Below the pieces are notes generated by a model, which was not told where the DNA came from, searched no databases, and saw only the letters and a list, made by a program, of their open reading frames with translations. Of a stretch of 64,000 nucleotides of DNA, positions 6,440-64,000 are shown one piece after another (within the stretch, counting starts at the first letter, position 1; each line of letters begins with the position of its first letter). Both the position numbers and the translations under genes were made by a program. Source of the stretch: Brachynemurus nebulosus (taxonomy: Eukaryota; Arthropoda; Insecta; Neuroptera; Myrmeleontidae); the NCBI GenBank assembly GCA_035578155.1, contig JAPWDM010000020.1, positions 8,407,269 through 8,471,268 of the forward strand. The letters are read 5' to 3'.

Positions 6440-7012
6440 GGTGCCATGCACAACACATAAAATTTGCAAGTTTCAACAAAATCTATCACCGTGAGATCAA
6501 CGCAACATATCGACATACAGGATGTGAAATTGCAAAAAACAGCATAATCCACCAGCCAGCTACCGGATGTTCCCTAGACATATTAAAATAAAATAGATTT
6601 TGCAAACTTTGCAAACTAAACATAAAAATTATTATAAATTCAATGTAATTTCATTATTTTCAGTTTTTGGCCATTTTAATCAATTTTGATAAATTTTAAT
6701 AAATTAAAAAAATTAACTTAATTTGAACTTCGTTTTCTCAATTCTTACCAAACATTATCAAACAACTTAAATAAGACAATCAACGCTTCATAAGTTAATA
6801 AAAATAAATGAGTAAAATTATTGAAGTAAATAAAACTTAATAAAAGTAAATAAAATTTAAGTAAAGTGAACAAATCAATCAACAAAGACTTTAATTCAAA
6901 CCAAAGCTCCGTTTCTTTCGTTTTCGTTAAAACAAAGTGGCGATCCTCAATATTCCAAACGGGATTTCCGGTGTCGTCCGATTTTAATAACTTTCATTGA
7001 AGTTTTGGTCAC

Positions 7013-7014
<2 letters not shown>
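6437..7014 (+). other. Possible LTR or retroelement fragment between two (TA)n tracts
   Basis: No complete gene. A short plus-strand open stretch (about 6490-6590) ends in a stop before an AT-rich run of about 300 bp. This is followed by 'aacaaagtggcgatcctc' at about 6933, which resembles the junction between an LTR and a primer-binding site in insect Gypsy-type elements. The matching LTR is not visible in the window, so the call is tentative. Confidence 0.25.

Positions 7015-7094
<80 letters not shown>
7015..7094. repeat. (TA)n microsatellite
   Basis: About 80 bp of perfect TA repeats. Confidence 0.98.
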
Positions 7095-7096
<2 letters not shown>

Positions 7097-7450
7097 AATT
7101 TTAGGGGGGGTCATTTTTGGTTTCTCAAAGCCTTAAAATCAATCTCTGTTTTGATGAAATTTGGTATAGTGATAACTTATTAACTAGGTCAACATATAAG
7201 AACTTTAACTGTGGGCAAATATCTCCTTGGGGAAGTACAAAAACTCTTTTGAAAATGTGTATGCATTGCGTAAAAACTATTAGACGAATTAGGATGAAAT
7301 TTGGTGTGGTGATAACTTATCACCTGGGTTAACATTTAAGATACTGTTTACTGCAGGAAAATATCACATTCCCGTGGGAAACATATTATCGATCCGCAAC
7401 GCATCGCGCGAACGACATCGTGGGTGCAGCTACTTATGAATATATTGTTA
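7095..7450. repeat. Dispersed repeat with two internal ~130-bp units
   Basis: The phrase 'gatgaaatttggt-t-gtgataacttat' occurs twice (about 7154 and 7293), each followed by 'aactaggtcaacat' or 'acctgggttaacat'. The block ends in a GC-rich tail near 7390-7435. Short repeated units with a GC-rich end are typical of Helitron-like non-autonomous repeats, but no diagnostic Helitron end is proven. The 71-codon open frame across it is accidental. Confidence 0.5.
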
Positions 7451-11253: not shown

Positions 11254-11882
11254 CAGGGCCGTCGAGAGAAATCAAGGGCTCCAGGGACAAACTAACCCAG
11301 GCCCCCTGTGAAAGATTAAATTTACTACTGACATCCAACCTTGTCATCCAAAGATACTAGCTGGCGCGGCAAAGGTTATTCTGCCCTTTCCGGTATAGTG
11401 GTGCAAACTTCCCTATAGTTTAGGAGCTATTGCCATAATTCCAAATTTCTTTTTCTTCCAATAACTTCTTACTGATAAGAATTTAGTTATTTTCATCTGC
11501 AAATTCTAATACCAACTTGTTTTTCTTACCGAATCTTGTTTTTCTTACGAAATGTGAAATAGATTTTGGCACAGTTAATGGAATTTTTTCTCCTCTTTCT
11601 ATTGATATATAATATGGTATGTCGGTCTTGAAAAATAATCTCGAAAAATTTTGTAATATTTTTTAAATTTAGGTTGGGAAATGAATAAATTACGTTAAGT
11701 ATTAGTTGTAATGTCAGACAATAATTTACTATGAAATAATCGGGCAAAATATTTTCTTCGAGTTTTTCTATAACTACTCATTTTCGAGTTATAACCCCGA
11801 ACATTTGTTTTCTTATAGAATGTAAAGTAGGTTTTGACATAATTAAATGGCTTTATTTTTTCCGCTTTATCGACAAGAAGAA
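11254..11882. repeat. Left flank of the inverted-repeat element with two diverged ~285-bp units
   Basis: Segments around 11522-11660 and 11800-11882 resemble each other ('tgttttcttacgaaatgt' against 'tgttttcttatagaatgt', followed by similar 'ttttgacataatt-aatgg' and 'tttattgat' blocks). No gene; the 73-codon minus-strand frame has no domain. Confidence 0.45.
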
Positions 11883-11904
11883 GAGCTGAGCGGGTTCTAT
11901 GACA

Positions 11905-11973
11905 CAGTAAAACCCCAATTATCCGGACTACTTTTTGACGGTGTTAAGAACCGTGAAGTTTGGGGTTTTACTG
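11905..11973. mobile_element. 69-bp pogo-type micro-MITE in the left arm
   Basis: It starts CAGTAAAACCCCAA and ends with the reverse complement TTGGGGTTTTACTG. CAGTAAAACC with an ATTATCCG block is typical of pogo/Tigger-type termini. The flanking dinucleotides are CA and TA, consistent with a decayed TA duplication. The same 69-bp element sits at the mirrored place in the other arm (20353-20421), so it inserted before the inverted duplication or was homogenised with it. Confidence 0.75.
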
Positions 11974-13114
11974 TACCTCGTGTATGGATTAAACTTTGAC
12001 CCGGTATGTACCGAGTACATGGGTGTCGGCTGTGCCTTAGGGGAGTTTTTTATATGTATTTAAAAGCACGTTTTCAGCATTGTCAGCGCTTTATAAGATT
12101 AATTTGTTTAAGTTCAAAAATTGTTTAGTAAAAAATATCAGCCATTATAGGCCTCAAGCAAGAAATAATTTTTTATGAGTTTTAATACTGTAACATTTAA
12201 CCCACAGCGAGTATTCTTTAGTTAGTTAACAAAAATTCTTGGAATTTTAACGAGTTATAAAAAATATCGCTTCTTATAACTAGTATATAATATTTTAGAA
12301 TTTTAAAGTGTAGCACAAAACTATTCTAGCATAATTCATAAATCAAACAAAAATTATCCTAATACCTACACATCTGTATATTGTGTATATACCCTGTATA
12401 TTAATAATATATTTCTAATGCAACGTCATTCTAATTCTTATTAGAATATCATTTATAATTGAATATAGAATCTAATTATAAAATATTTTATCAGTATTGG
12501 AAAAAATTTGCTTAATCAGCAGAAATCATTGTATATCATTTTAATATTGATACATATTTATATTTGGGTAAAGATAAAGTTATTTCTTGATATCTTAATC
12601 AGTAAAAAAATTTCAAATTTTTTCGGTTTTAATTACTATAATCTAAACACGTTGTTTATAAAATATCACGTAGTAATATAAAAATTATAACAGTAATTGA
12701 GTTGCTAAATTTTTATAGATTAGTAGGTATACTAGAGAATTGACATGTAAAATGAAAATTTTTATAAACCAGAAAATTTTGGATTTGCTACTTTATCACT
12801 AACACACAAATATATACATATATAAATATAACGGGTGTATATTTATTATTTTTAATAAATATTTTAGTATACAGGATGTATCATTGATATGCTTTTCAAT
12901 TAGAATGGTAAATATCACTAGATTATTTTCAATAGTTTTATAGGTTAACGAAAGAAACTTCTTGCTGTAAAATAGGGGAATTTAGGGTAACAGTTAAATA
13001 AAACGTACATAATTTTTTTTTTAAATTTTGTTTATAGAATATGTATACAAAAAAATTAAATTGCTTAAATATATTTATTACATAAAATCTACTTATTTTT
13101 CATATAAAAAATTT

Positions 13115-13574
13115 TTAAAAAATACAATTTTCTAATGAACAAATTTTGTCTGAATGAAACATACAACGTCTTGAATAATATTCATCTCGCAGATTGGAAA
13201 TCTTCGGTCATCAAATATTTCTTCCAAATTCAAAATCCACAGCTGGTTTTTGGTGCCATCAAACAAATTTGAAATCCATTTCTTCTTTTCACTGCCCTTG
13301 ACGTATATGACATCAAACTTCTTTAATATAGGTTTCAATATGGTATGAAGTTTTTTGTACGGAATAAATCCATAAGACCAAGGTATCCCATGCCAATTTT
13401 GGCAAAGCCAACGTGCAGCAACTCATTCATATTTCGTCGGCAACTCGTTGAAATCAAACGGTGCGTCGAATATAAGATGTAATATTTCATCCGAATTTTC
13501 CGCAGCGATACCAACTTTTTAAAATAAAATTCGTTGTTAGCTCCTTGATAGCCCTGTATATCAAGAAACGCCAT
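13115..13574 (-). pseudogene. MAFLDIQG-type protein of a virus-like element, left-arm copy, broken
   Basis: This is the mirror copy of the gene at 17928-18389. The start (13574-13572) is the same ATGGCGTTT, and the stop lies at 13117-13115. Compared with the right copy it has two 1-bp deletions, one in the AAAG(A)AGTTGG region after codon 18 and one in the GATG(T)ACC region. It also has an in-frame TGA just before the V-A-A-R-W-L segment. Reading frames thus survive only as pieces (13335-13574 and 13132-13338). N-terminal D-I-Q-G followed later by H-G-I-P-W and Y-V-K-G-S-E-K is consistent with an RNase-H-fold exonuclease-like family common in arthropod repeats. The function is inference. A TATATAAAG lies upstream at 13625-13633. 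Confidence 0.8.
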
Positions 13575-13624
13575 TTTTTATCGCCGCGCCGCCGTAGAAC
13601 TGAAATTATAAACACAATCCATAA

Positions 13625-13633
13625 CTTTATATA
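13625..13633 (-). promoter_or_regulatory. TATA box of the left-arm DIQG gene
   Basis: TATATAAAG on the minus strand, 51 bp before the ATG at 13574. It is conserved at the mirrored position in the right arm. Confidence 0.65.
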
Positions 13634-13722
13634 GAATAATTAAAAGTGGTGGGGATAGTTAGTTAATTTGTGGGATGTATTCGAAAATGGCTACTAATAG
13701 CTATTGCTAGTTTACAATCAAA

Positions 13723-13905
13723 TTACAAACTGTTAATAATATTTAGCACAGTTCTTTTCATTTTAAGACCTAGTGATTTAAGGAATGCTAAATTTCCGGG
13801 TGAAATGTGTTGTTGCTTAAAAGATTTACGTTTAATGATCTTATGTTCCGAAAGTCCGTTGCTATGTTGGCTAGGGGTGGACTGCTGTGAATTGTAAATT
13901 AACAT
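13723..13905 (-). CDS. Small protein of the inverted-repeat element, left-arm copy (60 aa)
   Basis: An intact 60-codon frame starting MLIYNSQQST. It matches the 57-codon frame in the other arm through the motif K-I-I-K-R-K and then Q-Q-H-I-S-P-x-N-L-A-F-L-K-S-L. The last ten residues differ because of a small indel. The frame is open in both arms despite substitutions, and a TATAAAATA lies about 107 bp upstream in both, so I regard it as a real small gene. It is basic, with no signal peptide or membrane segment. The NLAFLKSLGLK-type ending recalls small proteins seen in other arthropod virus-like elements, but I cannot assign a role. It lies upstream of the DIQG gene, which reads in the same direction. 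Confidence 0.7.
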   Translation of the reverse strand: MLIYNSQQSTPSQHSNGLSEHKIIKRKSFKQQHISPGNLAFLKSLGLKMKRTVLNIINSL

Positions 13906-14011
13906 GGTTCGAAATGCAATTTTTTTATCACGAAAGTATAATTTTCAACGAAAGAGATGTTAACTCTTTGACAACCACCGGTAAATAGACAATATTTTGT
14001 GTAAGTTCAAC

Positions 14012-14020
14012 TATTTTATA
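14012..14020 (-). promoter_or_regulatory. TATA box of the left-arm small gene
   Basis: TATAAAATA on the minus strand. Its mirror copy is at 17468-17476. Confidence 0.55.
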
Positions 14021-14098
14021 CCCTTTAACCATGATAAGGTGTATGAGCTGGGGTATAACTCAGCAAATTATTTAGCAGTGGTGACGTAACACACAAAT

Positions 14099-14190
14099 TG
14101 CGGTGGTTGTGTGGCGGTTGTGTGGTGGTGGCGGTGGTGTTTGTGTGGTGGTGGCGGTGGTGTTTGTGTGGTGGTGGCGGGGTAGCAGCG
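14099..14190. repeat. GGT/GGC-rich tandem tract, left arm
   Basis: Imperfect repeats of GGTGGTGGCGGTGGTGTTTG. The mirrored tract at 17215-17390 in the right arm is about twice as long and C-rich on the plus strand. Dense GG runs could form two-tetrad G-quadruplexes. Open frames reading His/Pro/Thr here are artefacts. Confidence 0.9.
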
Positions 14191-14407
14191 GTGTTTGCGG
14201 CTGAAGTGAACAACTTTATCATTAATGCTATCGTAGCAGCAATTTACTGTATACAATGAATCGGTGGTGACATCTCGCGGTGTTTGTTGAACAAAATACC
14301 TAAATTACTCAATTTGGTGAGGTTCTTGTTCCCTGCTCTTATCATGGAAGATTATTAAATACCAATTTTAGGTAAAATATTGGAAAATTTGTTTTCACTC
14401 AAAATAC

Positions 14408-14415
14408 TATAAATA
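14408..14415 (+). promoter_or_regulatory. TATA box before the cysteine-motif gene
   Basis: TATAAATA, 27 bp before the ATG at 14435. Other genes of this element also have a TATA box close to the start codon. Confidence 0.5.
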
Positions 14416-14434
14416 CAACTGAATTATTAACCAG

Positions 14435-14676
14435 ATGTCATTTATTCGTTAAGTTTCAGAAGGTAAACAACAACAACAACATCAATATGCTGATTTGTGT
14501 GGTATTTGTAAATTTCAACCGTCACAGTGTAAGTGTTCCTTCTACGAGCATTGTGATAGGTGTCGAAACCAAATACCATTTGCATGTGTTGTAAACTATG
14601 TATGATGCCATTTCCAAACTGTGTTTGCAATTATATAAACTGCCCCACATGTAAAAGTCGTTGCAATTGCAAATAA
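14435..14676 (+). pseudogene. Small protein with duplicated cysteine-rich zinc-binding-like motif, broken
   Basis: Not recognised as a named family. ATG 14435 is followed by an in-frame TAA at codon 6 (14450-14452), then an open stretch with L-C-G-I-C-K-F-Q-P-S-Q-C-K-C and E-H-C-D-R-C. After a frameshift between about 14561 and 14583 comes C-K-L-C-M-M-P-F-P-N-C-V-C and N-C-P-T-C, ending at TAA 14674-14676. Both halves fit C-x2-C-x6-C-x-C-x4/5-C-x2-C, so the protein has two copies of one cysteine module, probably metal-binding. It is about 80 residues, with a short Gln-rich run before the first module. One stop and one frameshift make it a pseudogene here. The role in the element is unknown. 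Confidence 0.6.
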
Positions 14677-14710
14677 TTTAGTAAAATCAATCATCTGATG
14701 ACACCATAAT

Positions 14711-14935
14711 AGGTATTGACCAATTCCACGGTTGCTGAAACCAACATTAGCATTTATTTATAACGCAGTGACAAGCGATGTAATGAGGCATAATGTATAT
14801 TTTGAGTAACAGTGGAATTGGCCAATACCTTTTAATCAGCGGTATATCTAAAGTTTTTGTTTAATACTCAAAATATTCATTATACCTCATTGCATCGCCT
14901 GCCATGTCGTTATAAATAAATGCTAATGTTTATTT
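14711..14935. repeat. Compound inverted repeat in the centre of the element
   Basis: About 72 bp at 14738-14812 ('aacattagcatttatttata' inward to 'ttttgagtaa') is mirrored at 14862-14935. A second, offset pair is 'ggtattgaccaattccac' at 14711 and its near reverse complement at 14815-14833. It is intergenic and could fold into a large hairpin. It may be an old foldback repeat or an origin-like structure; the sequence alone does not decide. Confidence 0.75.
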
Positions 14936-15033
14936 GATATTTTTCATTGGTTCTGGTGTGTAAACACTGATCATATGAAGGCGTGTTTGCTTCCGAGTAA
15001 CTTAATTTGTAGCTGTGTGGGAATAAATATATC

Positions 15034-15128
15034 GGTGGAGTAAAATGAGCAACTCAAATGTTGTGATTGTGTCGGGGTGGTGGTGGTGGCGGTAGTGGTG
15101 GTGGCAGTGGTGGTGGTGGTGGTGGCTT
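15034..15128 (+). repeat. 27-bp direct repeat plus GGT tract, copy 1
   Basis: 'tggagtaaaatgagcaactc' is followed by a GGTGGTGGC-rich tract. The same phrase followed by a GGT tract recurs at 16093-16143. The copies precede the second and third central genes by about 0.36 and 0.13 kb, so they may be duplicated upstream regions. Confidence 0.7.
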
Positions 15129-15236
15129 AGCTGGTGGTTTTTTGTGGTGGCACCTCATAAATTATTTAAACGAAGTGCATACACTGAAATTGGCAGTTTA
15201 GGAAACAATGTTTGAACAACACGGTGTAGAGTTAAG

Positions 15237-15237
<1 letters not shown>

Positions 15238-15291
<54 letters not shown>
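15238..15291 (+). repeat. (TAA)n microsatellite
   Basis: About 18 TAA triplets, between a GGT tract and the OB-fold-like gene. Confidence 0.97.
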
Positions 15292-15294
<3 letters not shown>

Positions 15295-15390
15295 GTTTAT
15301 TTGTATTTTACTTTTTACAAAAAGTTTACAAAAGTGTTGTAACAAAGAAGAAGTTATCTGTGGACCACTTTTACTGCCACTGATGAAACA

Positions 15391-15769
15391 ATGGATCCGG
15401 TTTTGGAGAAGTTGAATAAATTTGGTGCTGGTAAACCATTCAAATCACTATCTACACTCAAACCGTATGGTAACGTGGAAAATTCTCGATGTACGACGCA
15501 TGGAAACTCAATATGGTCTAGCGGTTGCGGTGGAACTTGCAGATGCTCAAGTGTTCCTTACAAAACGATTCGCGGATTTGGATGAGCAGACCATGGAATG
15601 TTTACGTACAGGACAAAATTTTATTACATATAAAGGAACTGATTCTACTGTTTTTTACATACTGTGGAATTTAGCAAATAGCTACCACATGTATGAAGTT
15701 TGGTGTAAGATTAAGGAAACTGCCAGATGTGAAAATGAATTGATTTACTTTTTAATTTTAATATTGTAA
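15391..15769 (+). pseudogene. OB-fold-like small protein of a virus-like element, one frameshift
   Basis: ATG 15391 opens a frame beginning MDPVLEKLNKFGAGKPFKSL. Near 15478-15483 (GTGGAAAATTC) the frame shifts by one base and continues through D-V-R-R-M-E-T-Q-Y-G, an alternating hydrophobic strand, A-Q-V-F-L-T-K-R-F-A-D-L and F-I-T-Y-K-G, ending at TAA 15767-15769. The order (short strand, D-x-R-x-x-x-T-x-Y-G turn, V-x-L strand, F-L-x-x-R-F, late Y-x-G) recalls small single-strand-DNA-binding OB-fold proteins of arthropod virus-like elements. This is inference from pattern memory. The last ~30 residues look like run-on sequence. An AATAAA lies about 20 bp after the stop (15789). A role in DNA binding during replication is plausible but untested. 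Confidence 0.6.
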
Positions 15770-16092
15770 ACGTACATTTTATTAAAAAATAAATTATTTT
15801 ACGTATAAATTCTTATATTGTTCTTATTTTACAACATATTAAAACCTCCCAAATTATGTCTTGAATGTTGATAAGACTCTTAGTAGGTATGGGGCCACTT
15901 GGTAACGCAATGTAATTGCCTATATACAGGGGGCAAGTATTTTAATGTTGGTGTTGAGTAGGTATGTGGTCGCCTTGCACTTGCATATAGCTATTCATTC
16001 ATTTTTCTGAACTAATTTCGGTTAACCAAAAGAGTGTAATGGGGGTAAAATGAGTAAAAATGTGTGTAAGCCGGATGCCAACCATTACTTCA

Positions 16093-16143
16093 TGGAGTAA
16101 AATGAGCAACTCAGATGTGGTGGTGGTGGTGGTGGTGGTGATG
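16093..16143 (+). repeat. 27-bp direct repeat plus GGT tract, copy 2
   Basis: Second copy of the phrase at 15034, followed by about nine GGT triplets. It lies just before the TATA box of the zinc-finger gene. Confidence 0.7.
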
Positions 16144-16146
16144 GAA

Positions 16147-16154
16147 TATATAAG
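16147..16154 (+). promoter_or_regulatory. TATA box of the zinc-finger gene
   Basis: TATATAAG, 71 bp before the ATG at 16218, in an otherwise non-coding stretch. Confidence 0.6.
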
Positions 16155-16217
16155 TAATCGCTAACACAATTCTGAATTAATCTTGTAAGACTAGTTGAGC
16201 TTTACACATCTATTATA

Positions 16218-17095
16218 ATGTTCGAGTGTACGCAGTGCTATAAAAGCTTCTCGCGGAGAGATTCTCTTTCACGTCATATAAGAGATACACATATGCGGGA
16301 ATTTTCACCAAAAAGGTTTGAAAATAGTTACTCTCTTGATCCGCTAAAAAGACAAGCATTAGACACGGCTGATGACTTATCTAGTTATGATACCGAGAGG
16401 AATGATGTTGATGGTGAATTTCGAAAAAATAAAGTTGAAGAAAGGGTCAATCCACTTGAACAAAGAATTAAAGCTGCATCAAAATGTAATTCAAACTAAA
16501 TTTTAATTCAAGAAATCAAAATAATGTTTACACACCCAACGATGAGTTTAATAACAGGGTTTTAACCACTTCTGATAGTGGAAATGTTATTACTCCCAAG
16601 TTAACTACAGCTCTGCAAACTGTTTTAGATATTTTATTAATCAAAAAAACTCAAAATAAAGGTGAGAATTCTAATGAACTAATAGCAATAAAACGTCCAG
16701 TCAACTCAGTGGACCAAGAACTACTTGCTAAGCGTATCAAATAGTACGGCTCAGAAGATTTTGAAAGTGCTAATGGGCCATTGAAAAAAATCAATTACTG
16801 GCATAATCCTAATACTTTAATAGATGAATTACAACGTTTATACGCGACTTCAGAGACTGGTGAAAAAATACTCAATATTATTCAGAGTTTAGAGGAAAAT
16901 AAAAACATGTTGTTTAACGTTGACGATCGTGAAGCTTTAATCGAAGAGATAGATACTTTAAAAGAAACTACTGTCGGTCAAGAAAAATTCTCTATACTTC
17001 ATGAACTTCAAAAGGCTGATGTCATTGAGCAACTAGGTGATTATCTGAATGAAACTGATAAAGAAGATGCTAGCGATTATGATGATGATGATTAA
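16218..17095 (+). pseudogene. C2H2 zinc-finger protein with conserved C-terminal helical motif and acidic tail, broken
   Basis: The N-terminus is a single C2H2 finger: F-E-C-T-Q-C-Y-K-S-F-S-R-R-D-S-L-S-R-H at residues 2-20, with the second histidine in R-D-T-H. A basic linker with K-R-F follows. The first frame stops at 16497-16499. The protein continues in the next frame (frameshift about 16480-16500), has a TAG at 16742-16744, then reads through N-Y-W-H-N-P-N-T-L-I-D-E-L-Q-R-L and E-K-I-L-N-I-I-Q-S-L. It ends in D-A-S-D-Y-D-D-D-D at 17093-17095. The NYW-x-(N/D)P-x-x-L-(V/I)-D-x-L block is, as I recall, shared by many arthropod virus-like element proteins. About 290 residues in the original. 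The zinc finger suggests DNA binding. It has no downstream neighbour before the right arm. Confidence 0.65.
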
Positions 17096-17214
17096 TTTAG
17101 ATATTCCGTTCAACAGACACCGCGAGATGTCACCACCGATTCATTGTCTACAGTAAATTGCTGCTTCGATAGCATTAATGATAAAATTGTTCACTTCAGC
17201 CGCAAACCCCGCTC

Positions 17215-17390
17215 CTATCCCGCCACCACCACAACCGCCATACAACCACCGCCACCACCACACCAACACCACCGCCACAAACACACAACCGCCACATAAA
17301 CACCGCCACCGCTACAACCACCACAACCGCCACACAAACACCACCGCCACCACCACACAACCGCGACACAACCCACACACAACCACCGCA
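17215..17390. repeat. CCA/GCC-rich tandem tract, right arm
   Basis: Longer mirror image of the 14099-14190 tract. The length difference between the arms shows that it expanded after the arms were formed. Confidence 0.9.
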
Positions 17391-17467
17391 TTTGTGTGTT
17401 ACGTCACCACCGCTATATAATTTGCTGAGTTATACCACAGCTCATACACCTTATCACGGTTATAGAC

Positions 17468-17476
17468 TATAAAATA
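17468..17476 (+). promoter_or_regulatory. TATA box of the right-arm small gene
   Basis: TATAAAATA, 115 bp before the ATG at 17583. The mirror copy at 14012-14020 is unchanged. Confidence 0.55.
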
Positions 17477-17582
17477 CTTGAACTTACACAAAATATTTTC
17501 TATTTACCGGTGGTTGTCAAAGAGTTAACATATCTTTCGTTGAAAATTATATTTTCGTGGTAAAACAATTGCACTTCGAACC

Positions 17583-17756
17583 ATGTTAATTTACAATTCA
17601 GAGCAGTCCACCGCTAGCCAACATAACAAGGGACTTTTGGAACCTAAGATCATTAAACGTAAAACTTTTAAGCAACAACATATTTCACCCGAAAATTTAG
17701 CATTCCTTAAATCACTAAGTCTTAAAGTGAAAAGAACATGGTACGCACCAATGTGA
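17583..17756 (+). CDS. Small protein of the inverted-repeat element, right-arm copy (57 aa)
   Basis: Open frame MLIYNSEQST to stop TGA 17754-17756. It matches the 60-aa frame in the left arm over about 48 residues, including K-I-I-K-R-K and F-L-K-S-L-S-L-K. The basic, compact protein has no membrane segment. A dozen inserted bases near 17745 change the C-terminus after V-K-R-T. It lies 171 bp upstream of the DIQG gene in the same direction, so the two may be co-expressed from separate TATA boxes. It is the only gene type of the element open in both copies. Function not known. Confidence 0.7.
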   Translation: MLIYNSEQSTASQHNKGLLEPKIIKRKTFKQQHISPENLAFLKSLSLKVKRTWYAPM

Positions 17757-17868
17757 TGAATATTACCAACAGTTTGCAATTTGATGGTAAACTAGCAATA
17801 GCTATTAGTAGCCATTTTCGGATACACCCCACAAATTAACTAACTATCCTCACCACTTTTAATTATTT

Positions 17869-17877
17869 TATATAAAG
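17869..17877 (+). promoter_or_regulatory. TATA box of the right-arm DIQG gene
   Basis: TATATAAAG, 51 bp before the ATG at 17928, identical to the left-arm copy (13625-13633). Confidence 0.65.
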
Positions 17878-17927
17878 TTGTGGATCGTGTTTATAATTTC
17901 AGTTCTACGGCGGCGCGGCGGTAAAAA

Positions 17928-18389
17928 ATGGCGTTTCTTGATATACAAGGCTATCAAGGAGCTAACAACGAATTTTATTTTAAAGAAGTTGGTATCGCTG
18001 CGGAAAATTCGGATGAAATATTACATCTTATATTCGACGCACCGTTTGATTTCAACGAGCTGCCGAAGAAATAAGAACGGGTTGCTGCACGTTGGCTTTG
18101 CAGAAATTGGTATGGGATACCTTGGTCGTATGGATTTAATCCGTACAAAAAACTTCATACCATATTGAAACCTATATTAAAGAAGTTTGATGTCATATAC
18201 GTCAAGGGCAGTGAAAAGAAGAAATGGATTTCAAATTTGTTTGATGGCACCGAAAACCAGCCGTGGATTTTGGATTTGGAAGAAATATTTGATGTACCGA
18301 AGATTTCCAATCTGCGAGATGAATATTATTCAAGACGTTGTATGCTTCATTCAAACAAAATTTGTTCATTAGAAAATTGTATTTTTTAA
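17928..18389 (+). pseudogene. MAFLDIQG-type protein of a virus-like element, right-arm copy, single in-frame stop
   Basis: ATG 17928 to TAA 18387-18389 is one frame of 153 sense positions broken only by a TAA at codon 49 (18072-18074). Visible landmarks: D-I-Q-G at residues 5-8; a hydrophobic H-L-I-F strand at 33-36; A-A-R-W-L-C-R-N-W-Y-G-I-P-W after the stop; V-I-Y-V-K-G-S-E-K-K-K-W; W-I-L-D-L-E-E; and a C-terminal R-R-C-M-L-H-S-N-K-I-C-S-L-E-N-C cysteine/histidine cluster. D-x-Q/E near the start with later acidic and His positions suggests an RNase-H-fold exonuclease-like domain, but the first motif has Q where such enzymes have E. Similar frames are, from memory, abundant in insect repeats. 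It is the better preserved of the two arm copies. Confidence 0.75.
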
Positions 18390-19489
18390 AAAATTTTTAT
18401 ATGGAAAATAAGTAGATTTTATGTAATAAATATATTTAAGCAATTTAATTTTTTTGTATACATATTCTATAAACAAAATTTAAAAAAAAAATTATGTACG
18501 TTTTATTTAACTGTTACCCTAAATTCCCCTATTTTACAGCAAGAAGTTTCTTTCGTTAACCTATAAAACTATTGAAAATAATCTAATGATATTTACCATT
18601 CTAATTGAAAAGCATATTCAATGATACAGCCTGTATACTAAAATATTTATTAAGAATAATAAATATACACCCGTTATATTTATATATGTATATATTTGTG
18701 TGTTAGTGATAAAGTAGCAAATCCAAAATTTTCTGGTTTATAAAAATTTTCATTTTACATGTCAATTCTCTAGTATACCTACTAATCTATAAAAATTTAG
18801 CAACTCAATTACTGTTATAATTTTTATATTACTACGTGATATTTTATAAACAACGTGTTTAGATTATAGTAATTAAAACCGAAAAAATTAGAAATTTTTT
18901 TCTGATTAAGATATCAAGAAATAACTTTATCTTTACCCAAATATAAATATGTATCAATATTAAAATGATATACAATGATTTCTGCTGATTAGCCAAATTT
19001 TTTCCAGTACTGATAAATTATTTTATAATTAGATTCTATATTCAATTATAAATGATATTCTAATAAGAATTAGAATGACGTTACATTAAAAATATATTAT
19101 TAATATACAGGGTATATACACAATATACAGATGTGTAGGTATTAGGATAATTTTTGTTTGATTTATGAATTATGCTAGAATAGTTTTTTGCTACACTCTA
19201 AAATTCTAAAATATTATATACTAGTTATAAGAAGCGATATTTTTTATAACTCACTAAAATTCCAAGAAATTTTGTTAACTAACTAAAGAACACTCGCTGT
19301 GGGTTAAATGTTACAGTATTAAAACTCATAAAAAATTATTTCTTGCTTGAGGCCTATAATGGGTGATATTTTTTTCTAAACAATTTTTGAACTTAAAATA
19401 AACAAATTAATCTTATAAAGCGCTGACAATGTTGAAAACGTGCTTTTAAATACATATAAAAAGTCCCCCGTGGTACAGCCTACACCCAA

Positions 19490-20310
19490 TTTTCTGTAGG
19501 ACAGTAGCGGTTTGAAATCTGGACTTTGGAGTCGGAGATCTGAAGTTAGTTTTGTGGTTTAAAATCTAGCGCTTGGTACAGTGGCCCCCACAAAATTTAG
19601 CGGCCTCCCGATTTTCGTTTAAGATGACGCAATTAAGCGAGGCTAAAGGCGAAGGTTTGCACGTAATAAGCACAGTACGCTTCAAAAAGTGATCGGACAC
19701 CTTTTTTGGTCAGGGTGGTCCACACTCTTGACATGGTAGTGTACCAAAAATTTAAGTACACTACCATGTCAAAAGTTTGGGGCCACCCCCTGAGTTAGGG
19801 TATTCCCCACATTTTGACGTGGTAGTGTACCTTTCGTTTAAGATGACGCGATTAGGGCAAGCGGGTGTTGGGTTCAAAGGCCAAGATTTGCGCGTACACA
19901 AAATAAGTACAGTACGTTTCAAAAAGTGATTGGATACCTTTTTGGCCAGGGGGTCCGCACTTTTGACACGGCAGTGTACCAAAAATTTAAGTACAGTGCG
20001 GTGTCAAAAGTTTGGGGCACCTCTGAGCTAGGGTATCCCCACACTTTTGACGCGGTAGTGTACCCCATCTATCAAATTGTGGCCTAAAATTCAGTCTGCG
20101 CATGCGTTAGGTTTGCATTCAAAAACCATGTTAGTGCTAGTGAGTAATGGGTTAACACAAATGCAAATCGTGATGACCAAATTGTGTTGACGCATAATGG
20201 GTTAACTTTATTTTATCGAAGTGATGATGATTCATGTTTTAGGAATTTAAAGGCCAACAGTATGAGTGCGTGTTGGGGTCAAATGTCAACGACAAATTTT
20301 GATACATCTA
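19490..20310. repeat. Hairpin-bearing tandem units (~225 bp) in the right arm
   Basis: Two main units (about 19612-19835 and 19836-20060) share 'cgtttaagatgacgc', 'caaaaagtgatcggacacc' and 'gtcaaaagtttgggg'. Each contains a palindrome; the first is TTGACATGGTAGTGTAC, a 12-nt loop, and GTACACTACCATGTCAA. A related dimer in the opposite orientation occupies 63240-64000. No coding. Confidence 0.85.
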
Positions 20311-20352
20311 CTCGGTACGTGCCGGGTCAAAGGCCAATCCATACACGAGGTA

Positions 20353-20421
20353 CAGTAAAACCCCAAACCACACAGTTCTTAACACTGTCAATAAGCAGTC
20401 CGGATAATTGGGGTTTTACTG
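20353..20421. mobile_element. 69-bp pogo-type micro-MITE in the right arm
   Basis: Mirror image of 11905-11973: CAGTAAAACCCCAA and TTGGGGTTTTACTG ends, flanked by TA and TG. Confidence 0.75.
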
Positions 20422-20445
20422 TGTCATAGAACCCGCTCAGCTCGC

Positions 20446-21987
20446 TACTTCGATATAAATGTATTTTGCACCATCGAAAAAAGGGGCAAAAATCACATAA
20501 AGAGGGTTTTGATTTATTATTCTATGAAAATTGGTTTCCGAGAAAGATAATTTTTGTAATCGAAAATTCTCTATGCGCTGAATGCTGTGATAAAAGTATT
20601 TTTCTAAACTCATTGTTATGAATTTATATTCTTAGAAATATAAACAAAGACGAAAGATATACAGGCGTTAATAATAAGTTTAACTGCGGAGCTAGCACAG
20701 TATATACGAGTATATTATCTTTTCCCTTATTTTTTTATTAAATGAAGAAAAAAGGTAAGATAACTAAAATAAATTTCTTTTTTCAAAAAGTCATCAAAAT
20801 AATCTTCTTATATTTAATAACTTGTAATAAAAATATGCTTCGTTCAATGCACCATTAGTAGGTTTTTCGGTAATATGAACCTATACGATCATTTAATATA
20901 AATAATAATACGGAATTTAAGATGATATTTTTTATCTTATTTTGAAATAATATCTATTGCTTTTAGTTTAAGTCCACCTAATTTTGTTTTTCCATGAGCT
21001 TTTCTTACATAAATTTGATTTAACACGATTTAAAAAGAGAAATTTTGTTCTCATTTTGCAAGATTTAATTCGCTTTTATACTAACTATCCAAAAATAAAA
21101 ACAAAATTTTGTTATTTTTCTTGGAACTCAATAATTGGCTAGACTTCAAAACAAAAAAGCACGTGTTATTTTGATTTTCTTTTAAATAACTGAAAATCAG
21201 AGATGACATTTTTTTGAGTGCTTAACAATTCATAGAACTTCTACGAATGTTTTTATTTCATAATCAATTGAAAAAGAAGAAGAAATCAGAAAAATTTAAC
21301 TGATAGAACTTTTATTATAGAAATGTGCCTTTATTACATAGTGGCTTTTATAATTTTATAAATGGGAAACTCCTTTTAAAATGACGGTTTTTATATAAAT
21401 TTTACTGAAATGTAATAACTTGTAATTAATATTTTTGTGTTTTGTTAATTAAAAATCAGAAATATTTTTTAGCTACTTTTATAAAATAATGTACCTAACA
21501 TAATTGCAGTCAAAAAAAATTGTGCTTTTAGTGAGTTCTTTTGTTTTTTGTGTTTTTCAAATCAATTATTTTTCTGTTTAGTGTTTTTAAGTTATTTTTT
21601 GTTTCCTTTTTTCTTTTTTTTTTTTTTCAAGCAAAACTTACCTTATCTACTAAATTACTAAATTTCCAGTGTTTGTGGAATAAAATGTGCAAGCATAACT
21701 ATTAAAATGGTAAGACTAATTAAATTTTTATTTAATCTACTATTTTTTCCATAAATATTTTTTTCGGAAATCAATCTATCATGTGAAAACAGAATTAGAC
21801 GTAAATATCTATGTATGAAAAAAAATCTACCTACAAGGTTTTGTACTTTTAACGTTGTGATATTTACTGGCTAAAAATCTATTTATATGAGTTAAAATTA
21901 GGTAAAAATAAGACCAATTTGGCCGGCTCGGGCTCCCTTTGAGACCCCAGGCTACAGCACCGGCTGTCCCCCCTCTCGTCGGGCCTG
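20446..21987. other. AT-rich stretch between the right arm and the hAT-like right end
   Basis: No gene. 20460-20560 weakly resembles 4180-4280 and, in reverse, 11800-11880, suggesting parts of one old repeat. The last ~80 bp are GC-rich ('ggccggctcgggctccc') and end at the hAT-like terminus. Confidence 0.5.
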
Positions 21988-30044: not shown

Positions 30045-32929
30045 TTACTCAGAAGAACTCGATTCCAAGTTAATTACAATTCGTTCGTTGTCTTCAAAAT
30101 CCAGATTTCCCATTTCTTCTTTCAATTAACTCATTGACATGTCTAATAGAATTAGCCCAATTTTCAGGTATTACCTAACAAAAATGTAATTTTTAAATAA
30201 ACTTATAAAATTATGTATAAATTTACGCTGTGTTACCTGAGCTAAAGCATTTTGCCATAATGTTTTTACATTTCCTTGTGTATTGTTGATATTTATATTA
30301 TAATAATTCTTACACTGACTCCATGTTAATTCTATTGCATTAAAATGGCAATGATACGGTGGCAGCCTTAATACGCGGTGGCCATGTTCTTCTAATACTT
30401 CGTCTATAACAAACCTGAAAAATAATTGCAATTAAATTTTAACTAATACGGAGAATTGTTCAAGACTAAATGATAACAAAAATAATTTATTGTATTGGCA
30501 ACAAAAAAATTACGCGTACGTTTCAAGTGGTGAAAATAGAAGCTGTCTCAAGCAAAACATGTGTATATATTTCTAATTGGCGCTATAAAATCTAGTAAAC
30601 CGCACATACTTTGTATAATATACCTATTTCTGTTTCCAATTAAACGTACACAGGTATTCGCTGAGTGTGATCTACATGGTAGGGAAAACGAAATTGATCG
30701 CAGTGCACGACGTGATTAAAAAAGCAATTTAGGGAGAAAAAATTTTCATCTTTTACAATCAAACAGTAAAATCTTTGTACTATTTTTGTAATAAAATGGA
30801 AATTATAACGCGTCATGATCACTCCCAAATAAATCGTTTAGAAAAATATTTAAATTGTTTATATGTTTCTTAAAGTATTTTTCGTTGTCAGTAATACCCA
30901 TGGAACTGTATAACGATTCTCACCTTAATTATTGCCGCTAGTTGGGCCGGTGTACAGGGCCGGTGAGAGAAATGACGGGCCTCGGGCATAATAAGAAATT
31001 TTTAAACATTTTTCCCCAAAAATTCAATTAACGAGCAAAAAAAAATCGTATTCTTATTTTCTCCGGGTCCCTAACCGAGCCTGTGAGCCCTCGGGCAATT
31101 GGCCCACCTGCCCCACACTCTCGCCGGCCCTGCTTACGTAATCTTTGCGTCGCCAACACAATACTGATTTTTTTTTTAATATTCTGTGAAAAATTTTTTA
31201 ACAGTGTTGCGAAAAAAGTTTTACAAGAGAATTTATTTTAAAAAAATATGTATACCAAACATTTTACCTTTTTAATTTATTTTTATGTACTTTCGTCAAC
31301 GCTATCAATTCTCGTTTCAAAACATTACTAGGAACGTTTACTTCATTACTCTTTAACCATTCCTAAATTATAGATAAATAATTTAATATTAAAAAATACA
31401 TGAAATGATTTTGTATTGCCCAAATATTATAATATTACTCCACTCACAATCAAATCTGCTTTACGCCACGTGCTAGTTGGGCTCTTGTCTTTTAGTGTAC
31501 ACTGATATCTTGCATTATCCATTATGATAATACATTTCCCTAATTTTTGTCGTTCCAATCCTGGTATTAATTGTTCTTGGACCCATTTCGAGAAATTTTC
31601 CCCATTCATTTCTCCACGATGGTCGTCTGATTGTCTTGCTGAAGAAAATAACAAATCGGCACCTGAAACAAAACCAAAATTAGAATCTGCATGAACAATA
31701 ATAAACCTTTTTCCTTTATTTAATGGCTTATGCGGCATGTAGTCAATGTTGTCTTTCTTAATCCAAGTCTTCACAGGTTGCCCATTAGCGAATATCCATG
31801 TCTCATCTAAGAAGATAACGATTTTTGGTTCATTGTAAATTGCTTAAATATTCCCTCATAAGTCTAAAACAGAAATCTAATATTAATCTATTTTTCTTTA
31901 AAAAAAACTCAATATTCAGAAATATAATATTTACTGTATTCTCTGTCTAACTATGTGTGGTCTTTCAATTAAAACCTTTCTAGGATCAGGAGTAGTCCAG
32001 CTGAATCCCATCGTCTTCAATAATTTTCTAAAGGATGTTATTTGTTCTTCAAATTCTAAATTATTCTTGACTTCTCTAAAGATTTTTGAAACTGTTACGT
32101 GTTCACCTAGAAATCGTAATTGTAACAATTAAAAAAATTTCCCGCCTTTTCCGTGTTTCTACGAATTTTTATCATTATTAATAATATTTAGAATAAATGA
32201 ATTTTTAACAATTTCCAGATGATCAATAATGATAATACTGTCATTAAAGACGGACAAAATTATTGACTGTACTAAATGATTGACCGTAATAGAGGTATGT
32301 TAGGAATATTTAACACGATGACGGTCATGAAGAACCATGACGAAGTGACCAACTAATACACTATTTTGAAAACTAATACACTTTATATGGAGTTTTTGAC
32401 TTGGTATTGCATAGTGTCGCAGTTAATTAAGTTTCACTTGACGTCTTACAACGTCAGTGACCGTCAACCGGTTAAGTAACTTATAAAATTAATAATATGA
32501 ATCACTAATTACTGATAATATTGGTCGTCTTATGACAGTTCGTATAGTAAAAGTAGTCTCGAAGATGGTAACCCATTATTAATCTTCCAATAGCTTCCTT
32601 GGTAAAATCGTCGACCACCTTGTATGGACCCCTTTTTCTTCTTACTGTATCTTTAATCTCGCCGTATTTTAAATAAGAATTTATTATTGAAGTAGCGGTG
32701 TTTATATTAAACATGTAAATACAAATTATTTATTAGAACAAAAATTTAATTACATACTGGATAATTTTTGGTAGATATTTACCTTATGACGTTGACAAAT
32801 TCTGTTAATAAGTCCATGTTTTGAAATTATAATATTTTCTTCTGCTGCTATTTTCTTCTCGTATAAATAACTGTTGATTAACATTTGCTTAGCCGTTTTA
32901 TGTAATCGTTGATGTGGTCTGAAATCCAT
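30045..32929 (-). pseudogene. Multi-exon IS630/Tc1/mariner-type (DDE_3-like) transposase, nearly complete
   Basis: It reads leftward from ATG 32929 (MDFRPHQRLHKTAKQ). Exon 1 ends at 32783 before GTAAAT. Exon 2 lies around 32714-32528 with a helix-turn-helix-like stretch (A-T-S-I-I-N-S-Y-L-K-Y-G-E-I-K-D-T). Exon 3 (about 32108-31931) has the conserved P-D-P-R-K-V-L-I-E-R-P. Exon 4 (about 31868-31446) has V-I-F-L-D-E-T-W (first catalytic Asp) and I-I-M-D-N-A-R-Y (second). Exon 5 is about 31363-31267. Exon 6 (30416-30237) has L-P-P-Y-H-C-H-F-N-A-I-E-L-T-W (catalytic Glu). Exon 7 (30174-30045) ends I-N-L-E-S-S-S-S-E. Introns are short with GT..AG. Probable defects are a frame break just before the first Asp and another near 30120-30130. 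All three acidic residues are present. No terminal inverted repeats found. Confidence 0.8.
30955..31132. mobile_element. 178-bp hAT-type MITE in a transposase intron
   Basis: The left end CAGGGCCGGTGAGAG matches the reverse complement of the right end, CAGGGCCGGCGAGAG. It lies in the intron between exons 5 and 6 of the minus-strand transposase. The flanking 8-mers agree poorly (CCGGTGTA against CTTACGTA). Its termini resemble those at 11254 and 21987. Confidence 0.8.
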
Positions 32930-55831: not shown

Positions 55832-57002
55832 ACTTGGGGTAAGATTGGCCCTTAAGGATAAGATTGGACCAAGTCTTGGAAAAAGAGAGTTTGGTTTACT
55901 ATTAGTTAGCAAATACAGCTATCAACTTGGTTCTTGTGGTAAATGACAGGTAGCAGCACTGACTATACTCGAATGCTAAGATTGATTTAATTCCATCTTT
56001 TGCCACTGCTCAGTGCTGCTCCAACTTCACCGTTACTTCTTCTGAATGTTTTGATGCAAACCAACTTTTGCTTACACATCCAGAACTACTTAAGATTTTT
56101 GATTGGTAAGTGTATAACAGCTTTCATTTAATATATATTCAAAATATCTTAAGTTTGTTTTTTCTGATACTTACCTTGTTTATTTGTAAAATGTGATTTT
56201 GTAAGTTGGGGTAACTTTGGCCCAAGTATTGGGGCAAGATTGGCCCACCCTGTTTTTTTTTTAAATTTCCATTAAAACAACATTATATTATGCAATAAGT
56301 GCGGGAAATTGTCGATTGCCCACGAGAGCGAAGTTAAGCGCACGTCGTAGTGAGTGCGCTCATTGGCTCAAGTAGGCAATCAACAATCCTGCACGAGTTG
56401 CATATACTATTTTTTATTACGAACTTCACATACTTTTTTCCATTATTATTACTATTTTTTTTATTCCTTTTTAAAATAATATTATTGAGTGTTTGTCTTT
56501 TTTTTTGAATTTAAAAAAGTTTAAATTATTTTGTTAGTGGTTTCTATAGAAATAATTATAAAATATTTATTAAATGAAAAATCAGGACTTAAATGAAAAA
56601 AAATTACAAAATTACCGCCCTTAAAATTAGCCGCTCCGGGCAAATGTCCGGGTGGCCTGCTCTTGGAGCGGGCCCTATCCCTAGCATATTATACACTCTC
56701 TACTTACGTACAACCACAATTAAAAATGTCGAACATTGTCCCAAATAATATTTGGCATTAATTACTATGACATTTTGTATTTGGGACAATGTTACCCCAA
56801 ATAAAGGCAAGATGGTCCCAAATTTTCAGAACATCTTAAAATAGAAATTAAATAAGTTCTGAGCTCTAATAACTAGTCAATGTATACTTTGAAATATGCA
56901 GAGTTCAATAGCTAATAGTAAGAGGAAGTTACCTAAGTATATGAGAAATATAAGGCAGTTTACGTAAAAAAACGCAAAACATGGGCCAATCTTACCCCAA
57001 GT
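55832..57002. mobile_element. DNA transposon remnant nested in the piggyBac-like element
   Basis: ACTTGGGGTAAGATTGGCCC at the left is mirrored by GGGCCAATCTTACCCCAAGT at the right, a perfect 20-bp inverted repeat. Variants ('gttggggtaactttggccca', 'tttgggacaatgttacccca') recur inside as subterminal repeats. No coding. The class is uncertain. Confidence 0.85.
56291..56402. repeat. 112-bp GC-rich foldback inside the nested element
   Basis: TGCAATAAGTGCGGGAAATT and its near reverse complement at 56375-56402 bracket a GC-rich loop ('gcgcacgtcgtagtgagtgc'). A third level of nesting. Confidence 0.75.
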
Positions 57003-62693: not shown

Positions 62694-63060
62694 TTATTAA
62701 AGTCTGGTTTGACGCATTAGTTAATGGTATTTAACGGAAAAAGGGAATGTCATAAAGTAAAACAAACTACAAAAAGCAGATGTTACAAAAAATTAAAAAA
62801 TAAATTAGCTGATGGTGATGATTACCATATGGTCCTCATCAGACAAGTCTATTAATAATAATCATATGAAACGAAAAATATTGCACAATTGGTTGAATAG
62901 AAGTGGTATTTTTGAAAAATAAAGAGTTGTGTTAGTTATTGACATCCGTTTACTTCAAAAAGTCGTAGTCTAAAAAGCCTGCCCCCCAAGAAAGAGATAC
63001 TACAACAATATTATTTTCGTTCAACATATCAGGGAAAACATGTTTAGTTGATATAAGTAG
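62694..63060. other. Spacer, no gene recognised
   Basis: Nothing supportable. Confidence 0.4.
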
Positions 63061-64000
63061 AATGGCTAGGCCGGTTCTGCGGCACCGTAAAACTAACCAA
63101 CTTGAACCCTTTTGCCAATGGTTGAAATCGTGTGACTTTACGGTACTACACATTCCGAACTGATGAGTCATCAAACTGTATCGATGTGCAAACCTTGACC
63201 TTTGACCCGGCACGTACTGAGTACATGTATTTAAAATTTGTTGTTGACATTTGACCCCAACACTCGCTTATACTGTTAGCCTTGAAATTCCTAAGAGGTG
63301 AGTCAATACCAGCGACCAAATTAATTTATGTTAACCCATTATGCATCATCACAATTTACTTATCACAATTTGGTTTAGTGTTAACCCATTACCAGCCAAA
63401 CCTAACGCATGCGCAGACTGAATTTAAGTACACGACGCATGCGCAGACTGCATTTTAGGTTACAATTTGATAGATGGGGTACACTACCGCGTCAAAAATG
63501 TGGGGTTACCCTAACTCGGGGGTGGCCCCAAACTTTTGACACCGTACTGTACTTAAATTTTTGGTACACTGCCGTGTCAAAAGTGTGGACCCCCCCTGGT
63601 CAAAAAGGTATCCGATCACTTTTTGAAACGTACTGTACGTGCAAACCTTGACCCCAACACGCGCTTGCCTTAATTGCGTCATCTTAAACGAACTATCACG
63701 TCAAAAAATGTGGGGAATACCCTAACTCGGGGTGGCCCCAAATTTTTGACGCCGTACTGTACTTAAATTTTTGGTACACTGCCATGTCAAAAGTGCGGGT
63801 CCCCCTGACCAAAAAGGTATCCGAACACTTTTTGAAGCGTACTGTACGTGCAAACCTTAACCCCAACACGCGCTTGCCTTAATTGCGTCATTTTAAACGA
63901 AAGGTACATTACCAAGTCAAAAATGTGGGGAATACCCTAACCCAAGGGGTTGCCGCTAAATTTTGCGGGGCACTGTACCAAGCGCTAGATTTTAAAACCA
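63060..64000 (-). repeat. Second copy of the hairpin-bearing tandem repeat, running off the window
   Basis: Reverse complement of 19555-20340 in the right arm, including 'tttgacccggcacgtactga' (63204), 'aacccattatgcatcatcac', 'acgcatgcgcagactg' and two ~210-bp units with 'caaaaaggtatccgatcact'. At the end it reaches 'accaagcgctagattttaaa', matching 19555-19575. It continues past the window edge, so a further inverted-repeat element may begin here. The 80-codon plus frame is not a gene. Confidence 0.85.

Follow-up and report, generated by a model that had tools for sequence, protein, structure and literature searches.

What kind of mobile element carries two inverted arms, each several kilobases long and each bearing the same reading frames, around a centre of different genes? 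We addressed this question for a single element of about 8.6 kb (positions 11876-20449) in a 64,000-nucleotide stretch of the genome of the neuropteran Brachynemurus nebulosus (contig JAPWDM010000020.1, positions 8,407,269 to 8,471,268), hereafter the window. As judged from its sequence, the element is very probably a damaged member of a non-autonomous family that descends from a Maverick/Polinton (adintovirus-type) element resident in this genome. A first-pass annotation of the window had likened it to a linear DNA virus or to a transposon of viral origin whose terminal inverted repeats are very long; the latter description is borne out by arm copies that adjoin capsid and packaging genes elsewhere in this genome.

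Element architecture

Comparison of the window with itself revealed inverted arms of 2.4 kb on the left (11876-14311) and 3.4 kb on the right (17089-20449; both annotated on the plus strand), enclosing a central region of 2.8 kb. Positions 12020-14311 match 17089-19488 in inverted orientation (91.4% over 2403 columns) and the outer ends, 11868-12021 and 20305-20455, pair at 89%, confirming the long-arm structure and the central interval first described. In a gap-free comparison, 102 of 2290 arm positions differed, 58 of them within the inner 800 bp. The right arm includes about 0.8 kb of 235-bp subrepeats (19489-20304; annotated with palindromes on the plus strand at 19613-20064), which the left arm lacks. 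They were most likely lost from the latter, because a neighbouring element that starts at 63056 has such subrepeats in both arms. The reading frames lie where the first-pass annotation had placed them, but nearly all of them carry stops or frameshifts. A TATAAA-like box does precede both frames in both arms, where the first-pass annotation had described identical TATA boxes, but the letters flanking it are not identical.

Arm genes

Each arm is the capsid-side end of a virus-like element, with a terminus, an exonuclease-like gene, the leader of a capsid gene without its body and the tail of the preceding gene. The exonuclease-like gene, previously listed by its 'MAFLDIQG' motif, is broken by a stop and indels in the left arm (13118-13577, minus strand) and interrupted by a stop at 18072-18074 in the right arm (17928-18386, plus strand). 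Its product is predicted to be an RNase H-fold, DEDD-exonuclease-like Maverick protein: the model of a family member reached a predicted local distance difference test score (pLDDT) of 91 with an RNase H-type exonuclease fold, and its structural neighbours were DEDD exonucleases. DEDD 3'-5' exonucleases carry a DxE first motif plus further acidic catalytic residues; in the present family the first motif reads D-x-Q, and the residues E22 and E98 hardly vary.

Viral structure matches of this family included proteins of Drosophila-associated adintovirus 2 and of two ichnoviruses, those of Glypta fumiferanae and Apophua simplicipes. The adintovirus protein (A0A7D4ZHK6) has the same predicted fold, with a template modelling (TM) score of 0.89 at 27% identity. 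The ichnovirus proteins likewise share the predicted fold; their genes lie on polydnavirus segments of wasps. Drosophila-associated adintovirus 2 is a 13.3-kb contig with a gene complement almost identical to that of adintovirus 1, which includes PolB, integrase, capsid, protease and FtsK genes (PMC8363768).

The second arm frame, previously taken for a separate gene encoding 57-60 amino acids (aa), did not hold up as such. In the window, its 57-aa version aligns with the start stretch of a capsid gene at another locus, L018 (58% over 40 aa, E 9e-11), a broken copy in which leader and capsid body lie in different frames. The 57-60 aa frame is thus the N-terminal leader of a capsid gene (major capsid protein, MCP) and no gene by itself. 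Leaders are located at 13726-13905 (minus strand, capsid body deleted) and 17583-17753 (plus strand), with about 1.1 kb of capsid body absent between positions 17789 and 17837. This deletion junction is common to 10 of 11 arm sequences, at seven of eight sites; the eleventh sequence (C84:55.2M) diverges beyond the leader. Next to the leaders, remnants at 13937-14035 (minus strand; E 2e-7, 61%) and 17468-17551 (plus strand; E 2e-6, 64%) match the end of the frame preceding the capsid gene, which we take to be a penton (minor capsid) gene from its position and sequence motifs.

Capsid-bearing relatives in the same genome

At L018 (C83:312500-321500), the arm (90% at the DNA level over 2283 columns) continues through the exonuclease-like gene and on into two frames that match the Pfam double jelly roll family PF21738 (1.1e-54 and 2.1e-20); the locus also contains an inserted reverse transcriptase of the long interspersed nuclear element (LINE) type. 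Locus L030 combines an arm with a Pox_A32-type ATPase (6e-7) and a 317-aa protein. Frames of L040, which adjoins L018, resemble those of L030 in a hydrophobic protein (57%), the ATPase (80-88%) and the 317-aa protein (97% over 36 aa), where the hydrophobic and 317-aa proteins are tentatively named from motifs and gene order.

Searching the genome (960 Mb in 138 contigs) for capsid genes and scoring the best 126 of 1648 candidates yielded at least 126 genes without inner stops, with frames of 329-399 aa and scores of 410-414 bits. Going by these near-equal scores, the copies are probably near-identical. The set looks like a large, recent burst of an apparently intact Maverick. One stop-free capsid frame, C1:97032108 (G000:C1:97032108-97033037), is located 2.6 kb inward of a terminus that is 89% similar to the window's, and is the sole one of the 126 listed capsids within 25 kb of one of 40 listed termini (the best 40 of 1449 candidates scored). 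A 901-bp piece read between this terminus and the capsid contains an open exonuclease-like frame and aligns with the arm of the window element (88% over 883 columns). The arm is therefore the end, on the capsid side, of an element in which a stop-free capsid gene persists.

Outer ends were found to pair at distances of 4.5, 9.2-10.9, 20.1 and 29.9 kb, with no listed capsid within these pairs, which suggests that related elements come in several size classes.

Termini and target sites

The window element is flanked by TCGACA (11870-11875) on the left and TCGATA (20450-20455) on the right, a 6-bp target-site duplication matching at five of six positions. Duplications of this length accompany three of the four copies with both ends placed, the others being GATATA/GATATA (6/6) at the neighbour and AACTAA/GACTAA (5/6) at L014. 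Random AG/CT-anchored pairs reached at least 5/6 in 0.9% and 6/6 in 0.06% of 200,000 trials. Eleven of 14 placed copy ends read AGTAG, with AGAAG (window left end), AATAG (L013) and AGTAA (L017) as the exceptions. Subterminal hairpins were annotated on the plus strand at 11904-11974 (ACAGTAAAACCCCAA ... TTGGGGTTTTACTGT) and 20352-20422, and a comparably strong fold was obtained at four of six further copy ends.

With 6-bp duplications, AG or (AGT)n ends and terminal inverted repeats, the element shares the hallmarks of Mavericks/Polintons (polintoviruses, Adintoviridae), to which the capsid leader and the preceding-gene remnant also point; the likeness extends to the relatives with capsid and packaging ATPase in the same genome. 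Intact Mavericks in a vertebrate survey (PMC8097293) are 12.7-24.6 kb long, with terminal repeats that measure 46-1447 bp, ends of the (AG)n or (AGT)n type and duplications of 6 bp, whereas the present element measures 8.6 kb with arms of 2.4-3.4 kb.

Replication and packaging genes

Unlike Mavericks, the element lacks protein-primed DNA polymerase B (PolB), integrase, ATPase and capsid body. No stop-to-stop frame within it exceeds 117 aa, and the seven element frames scanned gave no match to PolB, integrase (RVE) or transposase. Of the capsid gene only the N-terminal leader remains; in relatives the gene is longer or complete. A packaging ATPase (FtsK/A32-type) was likewise absent, with the L030 query finding L030 and L040 and nothing in the window (tblastn, E<=1e-4). 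The genome as a whole holds 193 PolB matches. In the centre of another copy, L010, an rve match was seen, which by eye was taken for an inserted retroelement.

A recurrent family with a recent neighbour

We queried the genome with a 523-bp arm piece and scored the best 40 of 639 candidates. The arm family recurs, and 12 of the 40 scored matches fall into six pairs, the two members of a pair being separated by 2.9-8.5 kb and every pair being inverted in the same sense. Besides the 901-bp piece, 17 other sites were read: the neighbour, the remaining five pairs and 11 single matches taken from among the better ones, a choice that was not random and left 17 of the 40 scored matches unread. Both arms were present at seven of these sites, the exonuclease-like gene at 12 and the capsid leader at 10 (tblastn, E <= 1e-3, as for all counts over the 17 sites). 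Leader, exonuclease-like, OB-like (oligonucleotide/oligosaccharide-binding) and C2H2 frames occurred together with an arm at two of the 17, L020 and L022, the latter with both arms. Four of the five frame families thus travel together elsewhere, contrary to what a purely local duplication, with frames that never co-occur, would have entailed. The element is non-autonomous, as initially considered, and its family is present in many copies.

One of the 12 exonuclease-like sites, L026 (C1:86716500-86726490), holds at 6906-7445 a more distant version of the gene, about 34% identical and about 1.5 kb from a family arm; the family arm therefore occurs beside different versions of this gene.

The neighbour is a second, recent member of the family, with its left end at 63056-64000 (plus strand) and its body running to about C59:8480045 between the two GATATA copies. 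It shares a related terminus and the subrepeats with the window element (80% over 747 columns), and its inverted partner lies beyond the window. Over 2947 aligned positions its arms show two mismatches, a further 114 gap columns reflecting the extra length to which one arm was cut, and both carry identical lesions in the exonuclease-like gene. Near-identical arms with the same lesions show that the arms were equalised at or shortly before insertion and that the exonuclease-like gene is not needed in cis. By its sequence, the neighbour moved with these lesions already present, presumably via enzymes of intact Mavericks. In four of six copies compared, the two arms of a copy are each other's closest relatives, with identities of 99.9% (neighbour), 98.1% (C58a), 96.4% (window) and 93.7% (C95).

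Central frames

The centre holds three frames, all on the plus strand and all broken: a cysteine-module frame split across two frames (14453-14673), an OB-like frame with a frameshift between the 15391-15585 and 15416-15766 frames (15391-15766), and a C2H2 zinc finger protein with an acidic tail, broken into three frames (16218-17092). In the neighbour, the C2H2 protein is intact as one 327-aa frame. The OB-like frame was found at three and C2H2 pieces at five of the 17 other sites, and the cysteine-module frame at none. Together with a leader that belongs to a capsid gene and an exonuclease-like gene that belongs to a Maverick end, this speaks against the minimal five-gene virus envisaged at first. 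Nor did the proposed OB fold find support, the single-sequence model reaching a pLDDT of only 38.9. The C2H2 and OB-like genes are possibly regulatory or DNA-binding. The tail of the neighbour's C2H2 protein weakly resembles the 317-aa protein of Mavericks (with no correction for composition, E 0.005-0.006), which may serve as a lead only.

GGT/ACC-rich tracts lie close to the arm frames and ahead of the OB-like and C2H2 frames, at 14100-14180 (a GGT-rich tract at the inner end of the left arm, plus strand), 15076-15125, about 16117-16142 and 17223-17389, and are possibly shared regulatory stretches. On the opposite strand, the centre of the neighbour contains a 187-aa frame.

Proposed origin

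A derivation from a same-genome Maverick can be outlined as follows. A founder would have lost the capsid body together with the replication and integration genes, and one viral end would have come to stand on either side of it; the likely route is a linear replicon, primed by protein, that snapped back or had one end copied. Intact Mavericks would then have provided DNA polymerase and integrase in trans, which let the derivative spread. During strand-displacement replication, its complementary long arms could form a panhandle by pairing, and such pairing would maintain their identity. The snap-back and arm-pairing proposals draw on established knowledge of protein-primed linear replicons. We infer mobilisation in trans because the element has no long frames, in a genome rich in Maverick capsid and PolB frames free of stops. 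The element would likewise be copied and packaged in trans.

Several observations weigh against this derivation. Between the 75 listed PolB places (the best 75 of 1288 candidates) and the listed arms, termini and capsids, no pair closer than 25 kb was found; no listed capsid comes within that distance of a listed arm, and one does so of a listed terminus. No copy read spans a full Maverick gene set and both ends, and the parent may itself have had the long arms at both ends. The window duplication is only 5/6, seven end pairs having been tried, and an unanchored scan of the window was at chance, its best result of 4 bp being equalled by 340 of 400 random pairs. The flanks of copy C58b, TAAGAG and GGTATC, contain no target duplication. 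The arms of C58b (86.6%) and C1b (92.0%) are not each other's nearest relatives, and the homology between the C2H2 tail and the Maverick protein is weak (E 0.005). By sequence, C58b and C1b look recombinant. Copy C58b is the L022 locus (C58:16095500-16105490), and because its arms are of different subtypes and the target duplication is absent, it is likely a recombinant between two elements.

Alternative explanations

Mavericks of this lineage might instead normally possess long inverted repeats that carry genes, in which case the window copy would only have lost its middle. Several copies do have two long arms, and since the distances at which outer ends pair include 20.1 and 29.9 kb in addition to 4.5-10.9 kb, long two-ended elements may exist. 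We nevertheless regard this as unlikely, because the truncated capsid gene and the tail of the gene before it, both present in each arm, have the look of a deleted end that was duplicated, and because the C83 capsid copy, of which one end was read, has a single arm match among the 40 scored.

About equally improbable in our estimate is that the element is a satellite virus, a small linear element that combines the helper's capsid-side end, present twice, with private small regulators of its own (C2H2 and OB-like). It would be copied and packaged by a Maverick helper and might interfere with that helper, in the manner of phage satellites, virophages and defective-interfering genomes. Such a satellite would fit the recent neighbour, which retains its intact 327-aa C2H2 frame while the exonuclease-like genes are broken in both arms, as well as the recurrence of OB-like and C2H2 frames in other copies and the plentiful stop-free capsid genes. 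In the window copy, however, these central genes carry breaks, and they were found at few of the sites read.

A cut-and-paste foldback-type transposon that captured Maverick genes is very improbable. Foldback and Galileo share very long, internally repetitive inverted arms with the element but differ in their ends: the element has Maverick-like ends, 6-bp duplications and viral gene remnants, capsid-bearing copies have the terminus in common with it, and none of the seven element frames scanned matched a transposase. A local inverted duplication of an ordinary repeat, although compatible with the inverted layout and an arm divergence of about 4.5%, was rejected as having next to no probability in view of the other copies, with six inverted arm pairs among the 40 scored matches, both arms at seven of the 17 sites and near-identical arms within a perfect 6-bp duplication at the neighbour.

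Other features of the window

A minus-strand stretch at 56262-56510 is 47% identical (E 2e-8) to a 150-aa frame beside the L030 arm and may represent a repeat or gene remnant. At 31427-31843, also on the minus strand, lies the remnant of a DDE-type transposase, with a weak DDE_3 match below cut-off.

Implications

Mavericks are regarded as viruses living as transposons. Most of the copies known have decayed, as had 96% of the loci in the vertebrate survey (PMC8097293). The genome studied here holds at least 126 stop-free Maverick capsid genes alongside a gene-stripped derivative family that, as the neighbour indicates, has gone on moving. Lesions doubled in both arms constitute a natural record of end equalisation in a linear virus-like element. 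If the private genes of the centre are under selection, the family would represent a satellite of an animal polintovirus.

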